A DNA stretch of 64,000 nucleotides from Fidelibacterota bacterium (GTDB lineage Bacteria > Fidelibacterota > Marinisomatia > SCGC-AAA003-L08 > TS1B11), in NCBI GenBank assembly GCA_020354025.1, contig CP070638.1, positions 2,578,250 to 2,642,249 of the forward strand, read 5' to 3'. Made by a program: the position numbers and the translations under genes. Within the stretch, counting starts at the first letter, position 1, and each line of letters opens with the position of its first letter. Positions 2,617 through 13,471 of the stretch are shown here, one piece after another. The notes below the pieces were generated by a model. The model ran no database searches. It saw only the letters and a list, made by a program, of their open reading frames with translations, and was not told the origin of the DNA.

Positions 2617-3888
2617 TTATTCTAGGGCGAAATCCAGCAGATTGTAGAATTCCCCAAGCCAGCCTATCAAATCCCCGTCCCGGTCAAAGCGGAGGATGCG
2701 CTGGGAATAGACTGATTGGGCTTGGCTAATCCAAAAACCTGTCTGCCCTTCGCCAGGCAGGACCTCGATTCCCGTGAGGTTGGAATAGTCCGCTTCAAGG
2801 ATTATATGCGGTTCGGGTTGACCAAAGAGACGGCCTGTCTGCCACTGCCAGCCCTGATGGGAGCGCCCGATATAGTAACAGTCACCGTTCGTCGGGTTGA
2901 GGCTGATATCCATAATTTTCAATTGTGGTAGGTACGTGGCAACCTGTCTGGCAGCATCAATTCGCACTACTCCCGAGTCAGTGGCTACCCAACATCCGCC
3001 CACTACGGGATCGGCCGCCACTTTTCTAGGATAGGGTACGCTGGCAGCAGGTTCCCAGCTGCCGCCGGGCACTGGCGGACGCAAGCAGTAGACCACACCG
3101 TCGCCAAACCCGGTGGGAGTACTTAGCCACAGGGAAGATGACTGTAGGTCAAGGGTGAAAGAGGCGTCAGGATCCAACACCACAGGAATTTTGTTTGTTA
3201 TGAGAGTAGTGCCCGCTGGAGTGGCATAGTAGATGGCATCTGGAGTGATCTGCAGGATGAAAACGCCGTCGGAGGAGGGATCAGCGGCTATGTCTATAGG
3301 CCGTCCGGTAAGGCCTGTCTGCCCGGTCCCGGTGAAGTTCACGCCCATGAAATAGACCGCCTGATCGTAATAATCAGCGACCCAAATTCGGTTCTCTCCG
3401 GACTGGTAGATTATGGCTTTAGGGGAGTTGAAATATTCGTAATCGCGTCCTAGCACATGAGACCCATCATAGCTGATGCGCCAAACACCGGAGTTGAAGT
3501 CGGCGACCCAGAAGTTGTAAGGTCCGGGGATCAGGGTATCCGTTGGTGAGAGGCGGCTTTCTCCCCATTCAGTGATCGCCTGGACGGCGTAGGTGTAGGT
3601 TGTGTCGTACATTAGATTCAGGTCCTGAAAGCTCGTGCTCTCGTCAGGTACACTCGCACGGAACCGTAATGAATCGCCCCCGACGCTACGATAGATACGA
3701 TATTCCTCCAGTCCTTTCACATCCATAGAGTCCCAGGTGAGTGTGGCTATATCGCGGTTAGCTGCGGCCTGGAAACCGGTCGGTGCGCCGTTGGTGGCGG
3801 GATTGTGGGGGTCCAGTGGATTAGCCCGCTCCCGGTCGGAACAAGCTATTGCCAACAGACAAGTCAGCATTAGTAGCGGGTATCTCAT
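2617..3888 (-). CDS. Lipoprotein with fibronectin III domain and beta-propeller-like region
   Basis: The chosen ATG (3886-3888) overlaps the upstream stop as ATGA and is followed at once by a signal peptide ending A-I-A-C (Cys16), a plausible lipobox; a start 21 codons further upstream would bury the signal. Residues ~35-115 form an FN3 domain (T-L-T-W-D, Y-R-I-Y-R, Y-T-Y-A-V-Q-A). The remainder has repeated W-V-A-D / I-W-V-A-D / C-W-V-A-T-D elements, like NHL or two-component-sensor-type propeller blades. No catalytic motif is seen. As the last gene of a four-gene envelope operon it is probably anchored in an outer-layer membrane and binds protein or carbohydrate; that role is inference. Confidence 0.8.
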   Translation of the reverse strand: MRYPLLMLTCLLAIACSDRERANPLDPHNPATNGAPTGFQAAANRDIATLTWDSMDVKGLEEYRIYRSVGGDSLRFRASVPDESTSFQDLNLMYDTTYTYAVQAITEWGESRLSPTDTLIPGPYNFWVADFNSGVWRISYDGSHVLGRDYEYFNSPKAIIYQSGENRIWVADYYDQAVYFMGVNFTGTGQTGLTGRPIDIAADPSSDGVFILQITPDAIYYATPAGTTLITNKIPVVLDPDASFTLDLQSSSLWLSTPTGFGDGVVYCLRPPVPGGSWEPAASVPYPRKVAADPVVGGCWVATDSGVVRIDAARQVATYLPQLKIMDISLNPTNGDCYYIGRSHQGWQWQTGRLFGQPEPHIILEADYSNLTGIEVLPGEGQTGFWISQAQSVYSQRILRFDRDGDLIGWLGEFYNLLDFALE

Positions 3889-4343
3889 GGGCTTAGGATA
3901 AAGGAAACAGCCACCAGCAGCAGGCCGGTTTCCGCTCCCAGGTAGCACCATCCCGCCCGGCGGTCCAGATATAGGGTCCTCTCGTAAAGGTCATCCAGCC
4001 GGGCTGGATCACCCGAAGCAAGATAGGTCTGATAAGCTGCTTCGGCTTCTTGATGATAGTAGTATGAGAGTGCACCGGATACGACCAGCATGGCTAGGCC
4101 CAGCCAGCGTTGACGTTTCAACCAGACGTTGCGGGGGGGCAACGGGGGGCGAGGTTCCAGGGATAAGGTATCCGGGACGGCTCCGCCGGCTGAAGCGTCT
4201 TCAGGCGGGATCCATAATGGAAGCACTACAGTTGCGGGTAGAGCGGCAGCATTGCTGGTGCTGTCTTGCTGCACGCCGGGTAGTTGCGCGGACAGGGGCA
4301 CTGACAGCATGAGCAGGGACAACAGAACGAGCCGGGGTATCAC
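3885..4343 (-). CDS. Small exported/membrane protein of unknown function
   Basis: The 152-residue protein begins with a signal peptide ending L-S-A-Q, followed by a Pro-rich linker. Two hydrophobic segments (about residues 80-95 and 132-150) flank a helical region rich in Tyr and acidic residues (Y-Y-Y-H-Q-E-A-E-A-A-Y). I do not recognise a family. It overlaps both neighbours by 4 bp (ATGA), which argues for co-translation with the propeller lipoproteins on either side. A structural or anchoring part in the same envelope assembly is the simplest reading. Confidence 0.65.
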   Translation of the reverse strand: MIPRLVLLSLLMLSVPLSAQLPGVQQDSTSNAAALPATVVLPLWIPPEDASAGGAVPDTLSLEPRPPLPPRNVWLKRQRWLGLAMLVVSGALSYYYHQEAEAAYQTYLASGDPARLDDLYERTLYLDRRAGWCYLGAETGLLLVAVSFILSP

Positions 4344-5611
4344 TCCGGTTCCCCGGCGGTGGAATCAGCAATTCGCAGGTGAAAGAGATGATTTTGCCTG
4401 TCCGCAACTACCAGGCCATCAGGGGTCAGGCTCGCAATATCGAGGGGCTTTTCCAGATCATATCGCCAAAGCTCCTGCCCGGTAGCCAGGTCCAATGCCA
4501 GCAGACCACCGCGGGCGAATGCTACCAGAACCGCCCGGGGCTGTGGAGATCCTATTAACAGAAGGGGATGATTAACTAATCCGTCCTCCCGAACGCGCCA
4601 GACCGGGAAGCCGTCACTGCCCTTGAGGGCGACGATCTCACCCGCTGCCGTTGCTGCCACCACGAGGCCGCCGGTAATCAACGGACGGCTATAGATAGGG
4701 GCAGCCATCTGGATCTGAAATACCGTCTCACCTACGGCTGGATCGACCACCAACAGGCGTCCATCCGTGTCCCCGATAACCAGCCTGCCTTCTCCAGACC
4801 CTACAACGGCATTGGGAGTCACCGGCAGCTGCCGTTTCCACAGGTGGGCATAATCCTCAACAGTTTCAGTCGCTTGATTGGTTTCCGGCAGAAGTATATC
4901 CGAAGGTTTTCGCAAGGGTAAAGCGTAGAGGATTCCGCCGTCATTCAGCACTAGAATCCGATCATCCAGCACCCGGACACCCCGGTAGCAGCGGCCGGGG
5001 AGTTGTCTGTGCCAGATGAGGCGCCCATCATGGATATCATACGCCGCGACTTCCCCTGAAATTGAAGCTGCCAACAGTAGGTCGTCGGCCAGCCCCAGGT
5101 GCCCGGTAATACCCGCAACCTGCTGCTTCCAGAGGGTCCTGCCTTGTGTCAGTTCGTAAGCGAGTAGCTCCGTGTCCTGAGAAGAGGTGATGAAAAGGTA
5201 CGGTCCTTCGCGATAGACCAGCTGGCCTGTAAGGGATTTGCGCAGAGGACGCCGGATGCGGCCATCCCGTCGGCCGGTTTTCAGGTCAAGGCGATATAAT
5301 TCACCACGATGGGTAGCAACTAGTAGTATGTCAGCTCCCATTGGAAGCAGAGCGGTCGGAGGAGAGGGCAGCTTTGTTTGCCAAGCCAGTTCCGGTTTTG
5401 CGACCAAAGCCCGGGAATAGTCCAGTTCCGCCAATTCATCAGGTAGAATCCTGGGCACCCCCCTGCAGCCCTCGCTGGTCAGGCCTATTAATGCGCAACA
5501 CAGAATCAATACGCCACTTCTGATCAGATGTGTGGTGAATCTTTTTCGGACTCGGGATTCGGGATTTGGGATCTGGGATCTGGAACTTGGAGATTGAAAC
5601 TTGAAACTCAA
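4340..5611 (-). CDS. PQQ-like beta-propeller protein (BamB-like), probably a lipoprotein
   Basis: Repeats of the form G-x-L-Y-R-L-D-L-K-T-G-R, A-A-Y-D-I-H-D-G-R-L-I-W and L-A-L-D-L-A-T-G-Q-E-L-W mark an outer-membrane-assembly BamB/PQQ-dehydrogenase type propeller of about seven to eight blades. No PQQ dehydrogenase catalytic part is present, so it is likely a binding scaffold. A hydrophobic signal near residues 30-45 precedes a Cys (S-E-G-C), so lipidation is possible. The start is odd: translation must begin at the TTG at 5611 or a nearby non-ATG codon, because the ATG just upstream hits a stop after two codons, and the first ~20 residues come from a short-period intergenic repeat. It follows the large upstream gene by 12 bp. 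Confidence 0.82.
   Translation of the reverse strand: MSFKFQSPSSRSQIPNPESRVRKRFTTHLIRSGVLILCCALIGLTSEGCRGVPRILPDELAELDYSRALVAKPELAWQTKLPSPPTALLPMGADILLVATHRGELYRLDLKTGRRDGRIRRPLRKSLTGQLVYREGPYLFITSSQDTELLAYELTQGRTLWKQQVAGITGHLGLADDLLLAASISGEVAAYDIHDGRLIWHRQLPGRCYRGVRVLDDRILVLNDGGILYALPLRKPSDILLPETNQATETVEDYAHLWKRQLPVTPNAVVGSGEGRLVIGDTDGRLLVVDPAVGETVFQIQMAAPIYSRPLITGGLVVAATAAGEIVALKGSDGFPVWRVREDGLVNHPLLLIGSPQPRAVLVAFARGGLLALDLATGQELWRYDLEKPLDIASLTPDGLVVADRQNHLFHLRIADSTAGEPE
5551..5610. repeat. Degenerate short-period GGGATTY repeat
   Basis: About 60 bp of drifting copies of GGGATTC / GGGATTT / GGGATCT / GGAACTT and then TTGAAAC, with a six- to seven-base period. It lies exactly at the junction between two co-directional genes. 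On the minus strand it is read as part of the propeller gene, giving a Ser/Pro/Asn-rich N-terminus before the signal peptide. Similar short-period runs occur between genes in many large bacterial genomes; their origin is not known to me. Confidence 0.75.
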
Positions 5612-5623
5612 AACATATCGTCC

Positions 5624-8524
5624 TTAATAGTCCCAGCCGAAAAAGAGCTGGGTGAACCAGGGGCTGTCCTTGGAACGGAAATTGGTCCGTCTCCCGATGT
5701 CCAGGCGTAGCACCAGCCCTCCCATAAACAAGCCCCTGAAACCGAAGCCGTAGCTACCGATAACGCCGCGAGGATCAGCTTCCCAGGCCTCCTCCCAGGC
5801 CTTGCCTACATCTAGGAACAGCGCGCCCCGGATGGGTGCCATTCCAAGGGCAACGGATCTAAGGTTCAGCATTAAGCTCCGGGCAAACGGAAAGCGGAGC
5901 TCCTGGTTGAGCATGAAGTATTTGCGTCCGAAGACTTGATAGATGCCGTAGCCTCGTAATCCCCAGCTGCCGCCGATATAGAACCGACGGATGTCCGTTC
6001 CGGTATTATACCATATCATGGTGCGCTGGGCGAATGTTAACCTGCGGGTGAAGCGCAAGTAGAGCCGGTTATCGAATAGGGCTGAGTAGTTGTGAATCTG
6101 AGACCTGGCAAAGTTGAAAGTGAGCCCACCGGTGATCCGCATGCGCCAACCGTCAATCGGACCGGTAAGCTGCCAGAGAGAATTATCGTGAACCACGGAA
6201 AAGTAATTGGATAAGAGTAGGGCTTCCTCCTCCCCCTCCTTGATGCCGTGGAATTTCTTCCGGGACTGCCACAGACTACCGCTGAGCTCCACCCGCCGAA
6301 AGACATTGAGGGGATAATTCATGGCTGCCCTGATACCAAGAGATTGTTCAAAAAAGATCCCTTGATACGGGTCCCAGTAGTAATCATTAGCAAACCGAAA
6401 TATGCCCCAGGAACGGTTGATGCGGCGGGTCAGGTTTACGGCGGTAACGGCAAGATTCATGTGACTCAGGAACTCCGAGCTGACCTGGGCTGTGTTGGCC
6501 AGGAGGAAGTGGTAATATCGGTCACCTAGCATGTCGGAGATACCCAGCTGTGCTCCGCCAAGGAAGCCGTAAATGGGATCGTGAGCCACGGCTGTCTGGG
6601 CGATGTCAAGACTGTATTTAAGACGGTATGGGCGGGAATCAGTCGCGACTTTTCCTTTGTGATGGGGAAGAGACCAGCTGCTGATGGCAGCGGTTGCACC
6701 GACGATTCCGCTCTGATCCCGGACACTATCCAGGTCCGACAGCATCAAATGAAGCTGAAAGCTGTAGTCCTGGAAAGCGGTGATAAGCAGACTGTCACCT
6801 GGCAGGGGAAGGACATCTACGGCACCCGTGTGCAGGTCGGTTAGCGGTGACGGGAGCAGGGAGTTGTGTGCGGCATTCGACAGGAGCGCTAGGCGCCAGA
6901 TGTTGGGGGTGCCGGAACGGTCGGAAACGAAGTGAATCGCTCCCGGATCATGGGAAGACCATCGCGGCCGCTGGTCCTGATAGGGCCCGAAGGTGACCAT
7001 GCGGATCTGGTTATCTGCCAGGTCCAATAGAAACAGGTTAGTAGCACCGTCCAATTCCGGTCGCCCCCGGTCGGAGCTGAAAATGATCGCCCTGCCATCG
7101 GGACTGAAACACGGCTCACGGTCGAGGTAGATGTCATTTGTGAGGCGTAACGCTTCAGGCTCGCCGCTCGACGAAGACCCCAGGGGGAAGCTCCACAGAT
7201 AGATGTCCGTCTTTCCGCTCCGGTCCTGGGCGGAAAAAACAATCCGGCTACCATCGTGGGACCATACTGGGGAACGGATAGTGATTAGGTCGGGGTGCGA
7301 GAATTCTAAAAACGGTTCAATGCTCCGGCTGCCTGCCTCTACCAGGGGATGCAGATTTACCAGCCGGATCACGTCATGCTCATGAGATTTAGCTACAAAA
7401 GCCAGTACACCGTCGGAGGACACGCTTAGACCACTCTGAAGAAAGTGCAGAGACTCCATTTCCGGGCTGCGCTCGCCGTGTATCATCACCTGCTCTTTCG
7501 GTTTTTCCAACGCCTGACGGTAGATATTGGTATACCCATCCCGGGAGGAGAGGTAGATCGCATGGGCCTTACCGGCGGAGTCCCAGTAGATTGCCGGAGC
7601 CACATTGGCCCCCAGACGGGTGAGCGGACGCGCTTTCCCGCCAGGCAGGGATTGCTCGGCGAGGGTTTTAGCAGCTACCTGCTTAAGGATAAGCCGCCAG
7701 TTCCGGGTCAACTCGCTGTACGAGACGCCGGTGACGGCAGCTAGTGCCTCTTCGAAGGTATCATGCTGGTAGTATTCCTCCATGACCTGTCGAATACGGT
7801 CCCTGCCGTATTCAGTCTCCAGGAATTGCAGGAAGGATTGGCCTTCTTTATATAGTAGGAAGCCTGCGCTGGCCAGGGACATACTTCCCAGGGAAAGTAG
7901 GTGATCGTGCAGTAGGGCGTCCCGAATTACCATTTCCGCTTCCGTATCCCACCCGGTGGACCACCACTCTGCCAAACCTTCGGTAAACCATAACGGCGGG
8001 TGGCGGTAATTCCAGATACCGGCTTGCTGGGCTTTGGTGTTAATCTTAGCGTACATGAATACGTGCACCAACTCGTGACGGATAACCTTGCGGAAATCGT
8101 ACATGGAGCCGTTGTTGGGTAGCACTACCCGCCCTTTAACAAATTCAAAAAAGCCGCCCACCCCCTCTGGCAACAGGTAAGAGGTTGTATTGGTCTGCTG
8201 AAAATGGAGGTGGTTGCTGTAGATCACCAGCGGTATTCGTCGGGCAAGAGTATGGTTGAACTTCTGCTCAAGTTCACCGTAGGCTTCCTCCGCCCAATAG
8301 GCTGCTGCCTTGGCCAGGGTCTCCTCAACTGGGTAATAGAATATCTGGAAGTGGGCCGTAGTGAGTACCTGCCAATCGAACTGCTCGTATTGGATCTTGT
8401 TACGGCCGAAATAGAATTGGCCATGAAGGGGGCCTAGTAAAAGCATGAACACCCATACGATCCCGCCTATCCTGAAAATGTTCTCCCAGTGGATTCTATT
8501 CACGGAATGAAGGTGAGATATCAT
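5624..8524 (-). CDS. Peptidase MA-like metalloprotease / TolB-like propeller / Omp85-like barrel fusion
   Basis: Counted from the ATG at 8522-8524 this is 966 residues. A signal peptide ends near L-H-G-Q. An HExxH zinc site (H-E-L-V-H, ~150-154) with a downstream W-F-T-E-G-L-A-E-W (third ligand Glu ~182) marks a gluzincin of the peptidase MA type. The centre has WD40/TolB-like blades (S-P-V-W-S-H-D-G-S-R-I-V-F-S, C-F-S-P-D-G-R-A-I-I-F-S-S-D-R-G). The last ~300 residues look like an outer-membrane barrel with the Omp85 R-G-Y element (G-L-R-G-Y-G) and F-L-D-V-G-K-A-W near the end. The frame stays open 63 codons further upstream, but that extension precedes the signal peptide. First gene of the four-gene envelope operon. 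Surface-anchored or periplasmic proteolysis is inferred. Confidence 0.85.
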   Translation of the reverse strand: MISHLHSVNRIHWENIFRIGGIVWVFMLLLGPLHGQFYFGRNKIQYEQFDWQVLTTAHFQIFYYPVEETLAKAAAYWAEEAYGELEQKFNHTLARRIPLVIYSNHLHFQQTNTTSYLLPEGVGGFFEFVKGRVVLPNNGSMYDFRKVIRHELVHVFMYAKINTKAQQAGIWNYRHPPLWFTEGLAEWWSTGWDTEAEMVIRDALLHDHLLSLGSMSLASAGFLLYKEGQSFLQFLETEYGRDRIRQVMEEYYQHDTFEEALAAVTGVSYSELTRNWRLILKQVAAKTLAEQSLPGGKARPLTRLGANVAPAIYWDSAGKAHAIYLSSRDGYTNIYRQALEKPKEQVMIHGERSPEMESLHFLQSGLSVSSDGVLAFVAKSHEHDVIRLVNLHPLVEAGSRSIEPFLEFSHPDLITIRSPVWSHDGSRIVFSAQDRSGKTDIYLWSFPLGSSSSGEPEALRLTNDIYLDREPCFSPDGRAIIFSSDRGRPELDGATNLFLLDLADNQIRMVTFGPYQDQRPRWSSHDPGAIHFVSDRSGTPNIWRLALLSNAAHNSLLPSPLTDLHTGAVDVLPLPGDSLLITAFQDYSFQLHLMLSDLDSVRDQSGIVGATAAISSWSLPHHKGKVATDSRPYRLKYSLDIAQTAVAHDPIYGFLGGAQLGISDMLGDRYYHFLLANTAQVSSEFLSHMNLAVTAVNLTRRINRSWGIFRFANDYYWDPYQGIFFEQSLGIRAAMNYPLNVFRRVELSGSLWQSRKKFHGIKEGEEEALLLSNYFSVVHDNSLWQLTGPIDGWRMRITGGLTFNFARSQIHNYSALFDNRLYLRFTRRLTFAQRTMIWYNTGTDIRRFYIGGSWGLRGYGIYQVFGRKYFMLNQELRFPFARSLMLNLRSVALGMAPIRGALFLDVGKAWEEAWEADPRGVIGSYGFGFRGLFMGGLVLRLDIGRRTNFRSKDSPWFTQLFFGWDY

Positions 8525-8760
8525 TTTGAGAACGTCAGCTGCTCCATGCCGGAAAATAGACATTGGCTGCCGGGAAATCCACACTTGCCGGTAATAATAT
8601 CTGGATTTTATTGCGATCGTGAAGACCGTTTTCTCTTGTGGACGGTTAGGGAGTAGTACATGATTGCTTGGATGTGTTAAGCTGCAAGAGATAAGTTCCC
8701 ACTTATCAGGCACTCAAGCCAGGACATGTACAAGATTCCTTTCACAGGATACAGGATCTG

Positions 8761-9486
8761 ATGGCCAGCTGGGAGAAATGGCTCTGGGGTGGTCTGGGCT
8801 GGGCTATGCTGGGACCCATCGGCGGGATTGTAGGCTTTGCCTTGGGGGCCATGCGGGATCAGACCCAGAATGGGGCCTATAATAGAACGACTTTTCCCCG
8901 TACCCGCCCCGGCGATTTCGGCGTGTCGCTGCTGGTCCTGTTTGCTGCCGTTATAAGGGCTGATGAGGATTTCAGCGAGTCCGAGCTGAATTTCGTCAAG
9001 GACTTCTTTATCCGGAACTTCGGCGAGGCCTACGCCCGGGAGCGCATGATTCTGTTCAAAGACATCCTGAAGCAGGATTATCCCCTGCGGGATGTATGCC
9101 GCCAAATACGCCGCCATATGGACCACCCCTCCCGCCTGGAGCTGATCCACCTCCTCTTCGGACTGGCCCAAGCCGATAGCCGGGTGCATAAGGCCGAGAG
9201 CCACATCATTGGCGAGATCGGCGGCTATCTAGGCCTCTCACACGCCGATTACCAGTCCATCAAGGCGATGTTCGTTAAGGATACTACCAGCGCCTACCGT
9301 ATTCTGGAGATTGAGCCCGGTGCCAGCGAGGAAACGGTCAAGAAAGCCTATCGCCGCATGGCTAACAGGTACCACCCAGATAAGGTTAACCATTTGGGCG
9401 AAGACTTCCTGAAAGTGGCTGAGGATAAGTTCAAGGCCATTAATGAGGCTTACCAGGACATTAGGCGGGAGCGGGGCTGGGCATAA
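8761..9486 (+). CDS. djlA: DjlA-like membrane-anchored J-domain co-chaperone
   Basis: A 241-residue protein with the DjlA layout: a Gly-rich N-terminal membrane segment (residues 8-30), a TerB-like helical domain (~52-165, A-D-E-D-F-S-E-S-E and [11 protein letters not shown]), and a C-terminal J domain (~176-241) with HPD at 205-207. The J domain should stimulate the ATPase of DnaK at the inner membrane. It is transcribed away from the metalloprotease operon with ~235 bp between starts, which must hold both promoters. E. coli DjlA is slightly longer (271 residues) but built the same way. Confidence 0.9.
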
Positions 9487-12691: not shown

Positions 12692-13471
12692 TCAGTGATG
12701 TTCTGGAAGGGAATTCAATTCTGCCCGCACCAGGAATGGTATTGACCCGAACTCAATCCACATGACTTCATTGCGCTCTATGTCCAGGCTGAACCGAAGC
12801 TGGTGTCCCTCACCCGGCAGCATATGGGTCAGAATGTCGGTTGTACTCAAGATCGGTTCGCCATATAATTGCCGTTCAAAGCGTGCCCGCATTTCCATCA
12901 CCGCACCCCCTTCATCCCTGGTACCGATAACTCCGGAGCATGCAGCGGAGACCTCCCAGACCACGCCCTCGACTTCCACTTGCAGGATTTGCTCTTCCCC
13001 GGCGGTCCAGTCATATCGCTGGACCCACAGCAGGGCACTGAACAGGGAATGGGCGCCCTCCTGCCAGGGACGCATCAGACCGTTGGCATAAACCACCTTC
13101 TGAGGATTCTGATTATAACTGGCCCAGAGAGAGTCCACCTGACCGTGCTCATGGATCAATTTCTCATAGCGCAGGGGATAGCCTTCTACAGGATCCACCC
13201 AGATACTGTGCCGGTTGTCCACGAAGTACAAGTTGTTAAACCACGGACGGGTTTGCGCGTGGTACTCGGCATGGCAACTGGAGTCGCTCTCCGTCAGAGT
13301 TATGGTTACATCAACCACCGGAATTCCCAACCACGATACGGTATATGAAAGCGGCTGGGCCGAAAGCAGTATGGGTAGGTACAGCATCCCTAGCACAGCC
13401 CAAATCCTGGGGGGGGCTTGATTGCATAAGGTTGAGAATGCCTGCCTGTTTAGCATAAGAAGCGGGTTCAA
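12692..13471 (-). CDS. DUF3108 domain-containing exported protein
   Basis: A 259-residue protein with a signal peptide (hydrophobic segment ending L-L-S-A-Q near residue 39) followed by an all-beta domain: Y-T-V-S-W-L-G-I-P-V-V-D-V-T-I is the typical opening of DUF3108, with later beta strands such as W-V-D-P-V-E-G-Y-P-L-R-Y-E. Members are periplasmic and of unknown function, often near envelope genes. An earlier cleavage site is possible because the N-terminus before the hydrophobic core is long. It follows the glycosyltransferase gene by 13 bp. Confidence 0.78.
   Translation of the reverse strand: MNPLLMLNRQAFSTLCNQAPPRIWAVLGMLYLPILLSAQPLSYTVSWLGIPVVDVTITLTESDSSCHAEYHAQTRPWFNNLYFVDNRHSIWVDPVEGYPLRYEKLIHEHGQVDSLWASYNQNPQKVVYANGLMRPWQEGAHSLFSALLWVQRYDWTAGEEQILQVEVEGVVWEVSAACSGVIGTRDEGGAVMEMRARFERQLYGEPILSTTDILTHMLPGEGHQLRFSLDIERNEVMWIEFGSIPFLVRAELNSLPEHH

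Follow-up and report, generated by a model that had tools for sequence, protein, structure and literature searches.

What does a protein do that joins a zinc peptidase, a beta-propeller and an outer-membrane barrel in a single chain? The question is raised by a gene within a 64,000-nucleotide stretch of DNA (the window) from a Fidelibacterota bacterium whose genome consists of one contig of 3.40 Mb. That protease, propeller and barrel share one chain had been proposed in a preliminary description of this DNA, and is borne out by three Pfam families that exceed their gathering cut-offs (PD40, E = 2.4e-14; Peptidase_MA_2, 6.5e-11; Omp85, 3.2e-9) and by AlphaFold models that agree with them. No match to the fusion at E up to 1 was obtained for the M48 family in Pfam or NCBIfam, nor for the POTRA family in Pfam. 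The single open frame has no internal stops, which excludes a pseudogene or a frame artefact. It extends upstream of the ATG at 8524 as far as a GTG at 8713 (1029 residues from the GTG); we consider the ATG the likelier start because it leads directly into what appears, by eye, to be a signal peptide. The features of the locus and of its paralogs are collected in Table 1.

Table 1. Features of the fusion gene, its operon and its paralogs (window positions, unless a locus is named)
Feature	Positions	Strand	Remarks
Triple-fusion gene (peptidase, propeller, Omp85 barrel)	5624..8524	minus	966 codons from ATG 8524
Probable signal peptide	8420..8524	minus	judged by eye
Gluzincin-type zinc peptidase domain	7652..8377	minus	mature residues 14-255; Pfam, model, fold match
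HELVH zinc motif	8063..8077	minus	sequence position, conservation
E146, presumed third zinc ligand	7979..7981	minus	invariant Glu
Y189, invariant Tyr	7850..7852	minus	conservation
TolB-like beta-propeller (PD40 repeats)	6725..7633	minus	Pfam, model, fold search
Omp85 16-stranded barrel	5627..6616	minus	Pfam, model, fold search
RGY motif, loop between strands 11 and 12	5948..5956	minus	model, sequence position
BamB-like (PQQ_2) propeller gene, probable lipoprotein	4340..5611	minus	next in operon
Third gene, 152-aa membrane protein by eye	3885..4343	minus	in 25/101 loci, duplicates counted
Fourth gene, fn3-like, probable lipoprotein by eye	2617..3951	minus	in 25/101 loci, duplicates counted; fn3 under cut-off
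U paralog, 1141-aa frame	L042:5749-9171 (own genome about 1.741-1.744 Mb)		all three domains over cut-off
Paralog, 979-aa frame	L043:5471-8407		strong PD40; HExxH; Omp85 under cut-off
Paralog, 999-aa frame	L044:5934-8930		HExxH; peptidase match under cut-off; weak PD40; Omp85 not listed

A conserved gluzincin-type peptidase domain

Eight residues (H114, E115, H118, E146, G147, D166, Y189 and G192) are invariant in 73 of 73 rows of alignment A2 and in 41 of 41 rows of alignment A1, which takes in the sister subfamily U described below. The 73-row set came from a scan in which loci were selected by two peptide patterns other than HExxH, so that the invariance of this motif was not imposed by the search. 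A chance occurrence of HExxH is ruled out, since both histidines, the motif glutamate and the downstream glutamate are found in every row of both alignments. As judged from sequence, HExxH with its downstream glutamate places the domain among the gluzincins (clan MA), and it would be expected to bind zinc and to be active. Y189 is a candidate transition-state residue, an assignment that we assume by analogy with M1 peptidases.

We ran AlphaFold2 on the 930-residue mature part with 72 relatives (A2) and obtained a model of the fusion with a pLDDT of 85.1 and a pTM of 0.83; the peptidase domain, also folded alone (alignment A3), reached a pLDDT of 83.9. In the model, HExxH and the downstream glutamate lie on two neighbouring helices of a gluzincin-like domain. 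The MA-type zinc site that had been read from HELVH and a downstream Glu is a prediction with which both residue conservation and the modelled fold agree. The lone peptidase model has its best matches in Vibrio-type M9 collagenases (Z 16.5), lugdulysin (Z 16.0) and M1 aminopeptidases (Z about 14), scores that lie within about 3 Z of one another and so do not single out one nearest family. These enzymes share the peptidase fold of the fusion (Z 13-16.5), but their identity to it is only 11-17%, and none of the matched structures is fused to a barrel. A sequence-only profile of the peptidase, compared with the PDB, gave just a weak collagenase match (E = 0.0097).

Predicted barrel and topology

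Model residues 283-564 resemble TolB (Z 25.1 over 242 residues, 2.5 A), and the sixteen strands that follow from residue 601 onward resemble the BamA barrel 8xnb (residues 601-930; Z 23.8 over 305 residues, 3.5 A). Structure prediction, which had been suggested as the way to find out whether the C-terminal part was something other than a barrel, thus returned a BamA-like barrel. The RGY motif sits in the loop of about 25 residues that joins strands 11 and 12, which we take to be the place of the conserved loop-6 motif in Omp85 proteins. Between the propeller and the barrel the model shows no POTRA domain; in the fold search, however, which is not a means of excluding one, the rows starting near model residue 71 align a short stretch at the N-terminus to the BamA POTRA region.

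The model also suggests on which side of the membrane the peptidase lies. Strand 1 is reached from the N-terminal side, and most of the longer connections of the barrel (about 25 residues at strands 11-12; about 16, 11, 11 and 8 elsewhere) lie across from it. Barrels of the BamA type have a periplasmic N-terminus. Because entry side and long connections are disposed as in BamA, the protease is predicted to face the periplasm, and both peptidase and propeller should be periplasmic. The earlier idea that the barrel of this protein anchors its protease in the outer membrane, while the propeller might choose the substrate, agrees in its first part with the Pfam match and with this model, and the predicted topology answers the accompanying question of orientation in favour of the periplasm.

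The Omp85 superfamily has been defined by the membrane-embedded Omp85 barrel domain, with POTRA domains not required (PMC4104836); another paper gives at least one POTRA domain as an Omp85 characteristic (PMC11116518). By the barrel definition the fusion belongs to the superfamily, on its Pfam match, its BamA-like fold and its strand number.

Two subfamilies in several phyla

The fusion is a member of an old family present in several bacterial phyla. We call W the subfamily of the window protein and U a sister subfamily that shares its architecture, with members mostly of about 1030-1080 residues. A FastTree tree built from 108 rows separates W (87) from U (21) by a branch with support 100. 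W forms one clade across Fidelibacterota (Marinimicrobia), Ignavibacteriota/Bacteroidota, Calditrichota and KSB1, and broadly tracks the host phylum; the nearest named loci to the window protein are Candidatus Neomarinimicrobiota/Marinimicrobia records (Fidelibacterota). Records named Melioribacter roseus (L160) and Ignavibacterium sp. (L137 and L143) also have the gene. One W gene nested inside Fidelibacterota comes from a record titled SAR202 cluster bacterium (Chloroflexota; locus L096), which is probably a mislabelled or mixed bin.

Some match was obtained in all 149 genomes searched in the phylum of the window, with E < 1e-50 in 146 of them. W itself is present in 29/149 and, being missing from most genomes there, is not essential in Fidelibacterota (this count and that at E < 1e-50 were made by eye). 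U, to which the remaining strong matches belong, is nearly universal in the phylum and is kept by all 12 listed g13 genomes of 0.7-1.0 Mb; this persistence, even in such small genomes, hints at a basic envelope role. In the phylum of Candidatus Chrysopegis kryptomonas, 178 of 198 genomes gave some match, and at least 45 of the 198 carry W (E < 1e-150, counted by eye). A scan of a genome collection retrieved at least 528 relatives, the best 80 of which were taken further; these 80 belong to Fidelibacterota, Ignavibacteriota, records labelled Bacteroidetes, Calditrichota, KSB1 and Kryptonia. When the 41 members of A1 were compared with Pfam (E up to 0.001), Peptidase_MA_2 was found in 41, PD40 in 40 and Omp85 in 22, so that the barrel often lies outside the reach of Pfam.

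A BamB-like partner gene

Directly downstream of the fusion lies a gene whose product has BamB as its best PDB matches and is itself the best BamB match in the genome. It scores 104 bits against NCBIfam TIGR03300, below the curated cut-off of 285.2, and for this reason we call it BamB-like only. Its conservation was assessed in 101 W loci, namely the window, 20 loci from the phylum search and the best 80 of the at least 528 scan relatives. Five were removed as identical copies and 17 of the remaining 96 for having less than 1.5 kb of downstream sequence, which left 79 distinct loci with room for a partner. In 77 of these 79, a profile finds a BamB-like gene as the next gene downstream of the fusion, in the same orientation; 34 of these 77 have an in-frame ATG that either overlaps the fusion's stop codon or starts at most 4 bases from it. 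A stricter distance rule had first given 70/79; the wider rule recovered seven of the nine misses, in which the stop-to-stop reading of the partner frame started far upstream. Of the two left, one (L089) meets a stretch of N at the partner position, and the other (L164) is a true absence. L164, downstream of position 12760, is the sole judged locus with a fusion and no BamB-like gene in the available sequence, and its protein is on a long branch.

The profile is partly circular, having been trained on 60 of these neighbours. A BLAST search with the single partner sequence of the window is not, and it found a match in 77/101 loci, each close to the fusion and on the same strand. At the 21 U loci the partner profile found none. 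Of 88 partners, 87 have a hydrophobic stretch ending at a cysteine, as a lipoprotein would; the home-made rule behind this count is loose and makes it weak evidence. The coupling of the W fusion to a BamB-like gene is new here, and it is from this adjacency that we suppose a partnership of the two products.

The two further genes downstream (Table 1) have a narrower distribution, nearly all of their carriers being Fidelibacterota. On the other side, the divergent neighbour at 8761-9486 has by eye the look of a TerB-DnaJ (DjlA-type) protein; it stands beside the fusion in 4/101 loci, in near relatives only.

Comparison with known Omp85 proteins

The closest described architecture is the WD40-Omp85 subfamily, named in 2014 by Heinz and Lithgow and likened by them to a BamA-BamB fusion (PMC4104836). 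Like our protein, in which a TolB-like propeller precedes an Omp85 barrel, its members have an N-terminal TolB-like propeller and an Omp85 barrel lacking POTRA sequences; in contrast, the passages of that paper on the subfamily mention neither a peptidase nor a BamB-like partner gene. A literature search, with most subscription papers outside its coverage, returned no paper on Omp85 proteins with Peptidase_MA, with PD40 or in Marinimicrobia, and none on WD40-Omp85 beyond PMC4104836. In that search and in those passages of PMC4104836 we found no statement on a gluzincin peptidase or a BamB-like neighbour for the propeller-Omp85 class. The class is already known; a gluzincin peptidase in such a protein may be new, as is apparently its BamB-like neighbour.

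An Omp85-'metalloprotease' class in the same paper also has an enzyme domain before the barrel, but resembles the fusion in name only: its domain is given there as PF00149 (PMC4104836), the Metallophos family of Pfam (calcineurin-like phosphoesterase), and is no gluzincin peptidase. The published label rests on a phosphoesterase domain; the conserved metallopeptidase residues belong instead to the family of the fusion. Later papers repeat the protease label for the PF00149 class.

In PlpD, a patatin-like enzyme is fused to an Omp85 barrel and is periplasmic, as we propose for the peptidase; as described in PMC11116518, however, PlpD carries a lipase domain and one POTRA domain, and no propeller. 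Functionally, the nearest parallel is BepA with the BAM complex, where a periplasmic zinc protease works beside an Omp85 barrel and BamB (PMC8423444, PMC13067283). BepA makes contact with substrates that are bound at the seam of BamA (PMC8423444) and degrades stalled substrates on BAM (PMC13067283). These are separate proteins, and BepA is an M48 peptidase (PMC7950410), whereas the fusion is one chain. BamB is said to have arisen within Proteobacteria (PMC13067283).

Possible functions

Barrel, periplasmic zinc peptidase and BamB-like partner together recall BAM with BepA. By this analogy the fusion would be an Omp85 protein that apparently lacks POTRA and brings along a protease, partnering a BamB-like protein in the assembly or quality control of outer-membrane proteins, a reading to which we give about an even chance. 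The protein would be exported and its C-terminal third would form an outer-membrane Omp85 barrel of 16 strands, with the zinc peptidase and the TolB-like propeller hanging in the periplasm where BamA has its POTRA domains. It would cooperate, perhaps in a complex, with the BamB-like protein encoded next to it; the propellers and the barrel would hold unfolded or stalled outer-membrane chains, and the fused protease would cut those that fail, presumably in the manner of BepA on the E. coli BAM complex. Several points speak against this role. The fusion apparently has no POTRA, the domain on which BamB usually docks in E. coli (PMC13067283). The partner stays below the BamB cut-off, and propellers readily match each other. 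L164 retains the fusion without a BamB-like gene, and W is missing from most genomes of the window's phylum. Omp85-type barrels may also serve unrelated jobs, as PlpD illustrates.

Could the barrel be a mere anchor? The peptidase would then mature particular envelope or secreted proteins, while the propellers dock substrates or other envelope parts. The presence of several paralogs per genome, suggestive of specialised substrates, the TolB-like character of the propeller and the additional lineage-specific genes downstream in Fidelibacterota are consistent with such a processing protease, which we nevertheless consider unlikely, as the partner conserved across phyla is BamB-like and no conserved dedicated substrate gene accompanies the fusion. 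Still less probable is a barrel assembly factor whose peptidase domain serves chiefly for holding, with cleavage rare or tightly gated. The Omp85 barrel and the BamB-like partner would suit it, and BepA likewise has a non-proteolytic role in the maturation of LptD (PMC8423444), but the strict invariance of the catalytic residues speaks against it. Transport of the peptidase through the barrel to the cell surface, as once proposed for PlpD under the name of type Vd secretion (PMC4104836), is very improbable given that the enzyme domain of PlpD was later shown to be periplasmic (PMC11116518), that the model topology points the same way and that the partner gene is of the periplasmic BamB type.

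What is known of outer-membrane quality control comes mainly from Proteobacteria, in which BepA, BamA and BamB are separate proteins. If the assembly and quality-control reading is true, the fusion may provide the outer membrane with a built-in quality control: a protease and a barrel in one chain, coupled to a BamB-like gene, would be a different answer to the same problem, in several phyla of mostly uncultured bacteria. A broader version is possible but rather doubtful. Fidelibacterota, Calditrichota, KSB1 and Ignavibacteriota/Bacteroidota would share an ancient second outer-membrane machine that both assists outer-membrane proteins and destroys the failed ones; its parts would be a protease-Omp85 without POTRA and a BamB-like lipoprotein dedicated to it. 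U may do likewise for LPS-export barrels.

Paralogs and the surroundings of U

The link of U with LPS export is drawn from its adjacency to an LpxH-like gene. A divergent gene of one cluster stands beside U in 17 of 21 loci, and the example in the window's genome, from which the U paralog L042 is divergent, is LpxH-like (106 bits, cut-off 134). Beyond it lies a HEAT-repeat gene in 14/21 loci; downstream of U are a Tgt-like gene (15/21) and a RadA-like gene (12/21), all three named from examples. An LptB gene, over its cut-off, is found near U at L085. For the two other paralogs, L043 and L044, RG motifs seen by eye suggest that the C-termini may also form barrels. A stand-alone MA-type peptidase (L045:5329-6627, 433-aa frame) matches neither propeller nor barrel and carries a hydrophobic stretch close to its C-terminal end; it is possibly a cousin of the fused domain, either soluble or anchored in a membrane.
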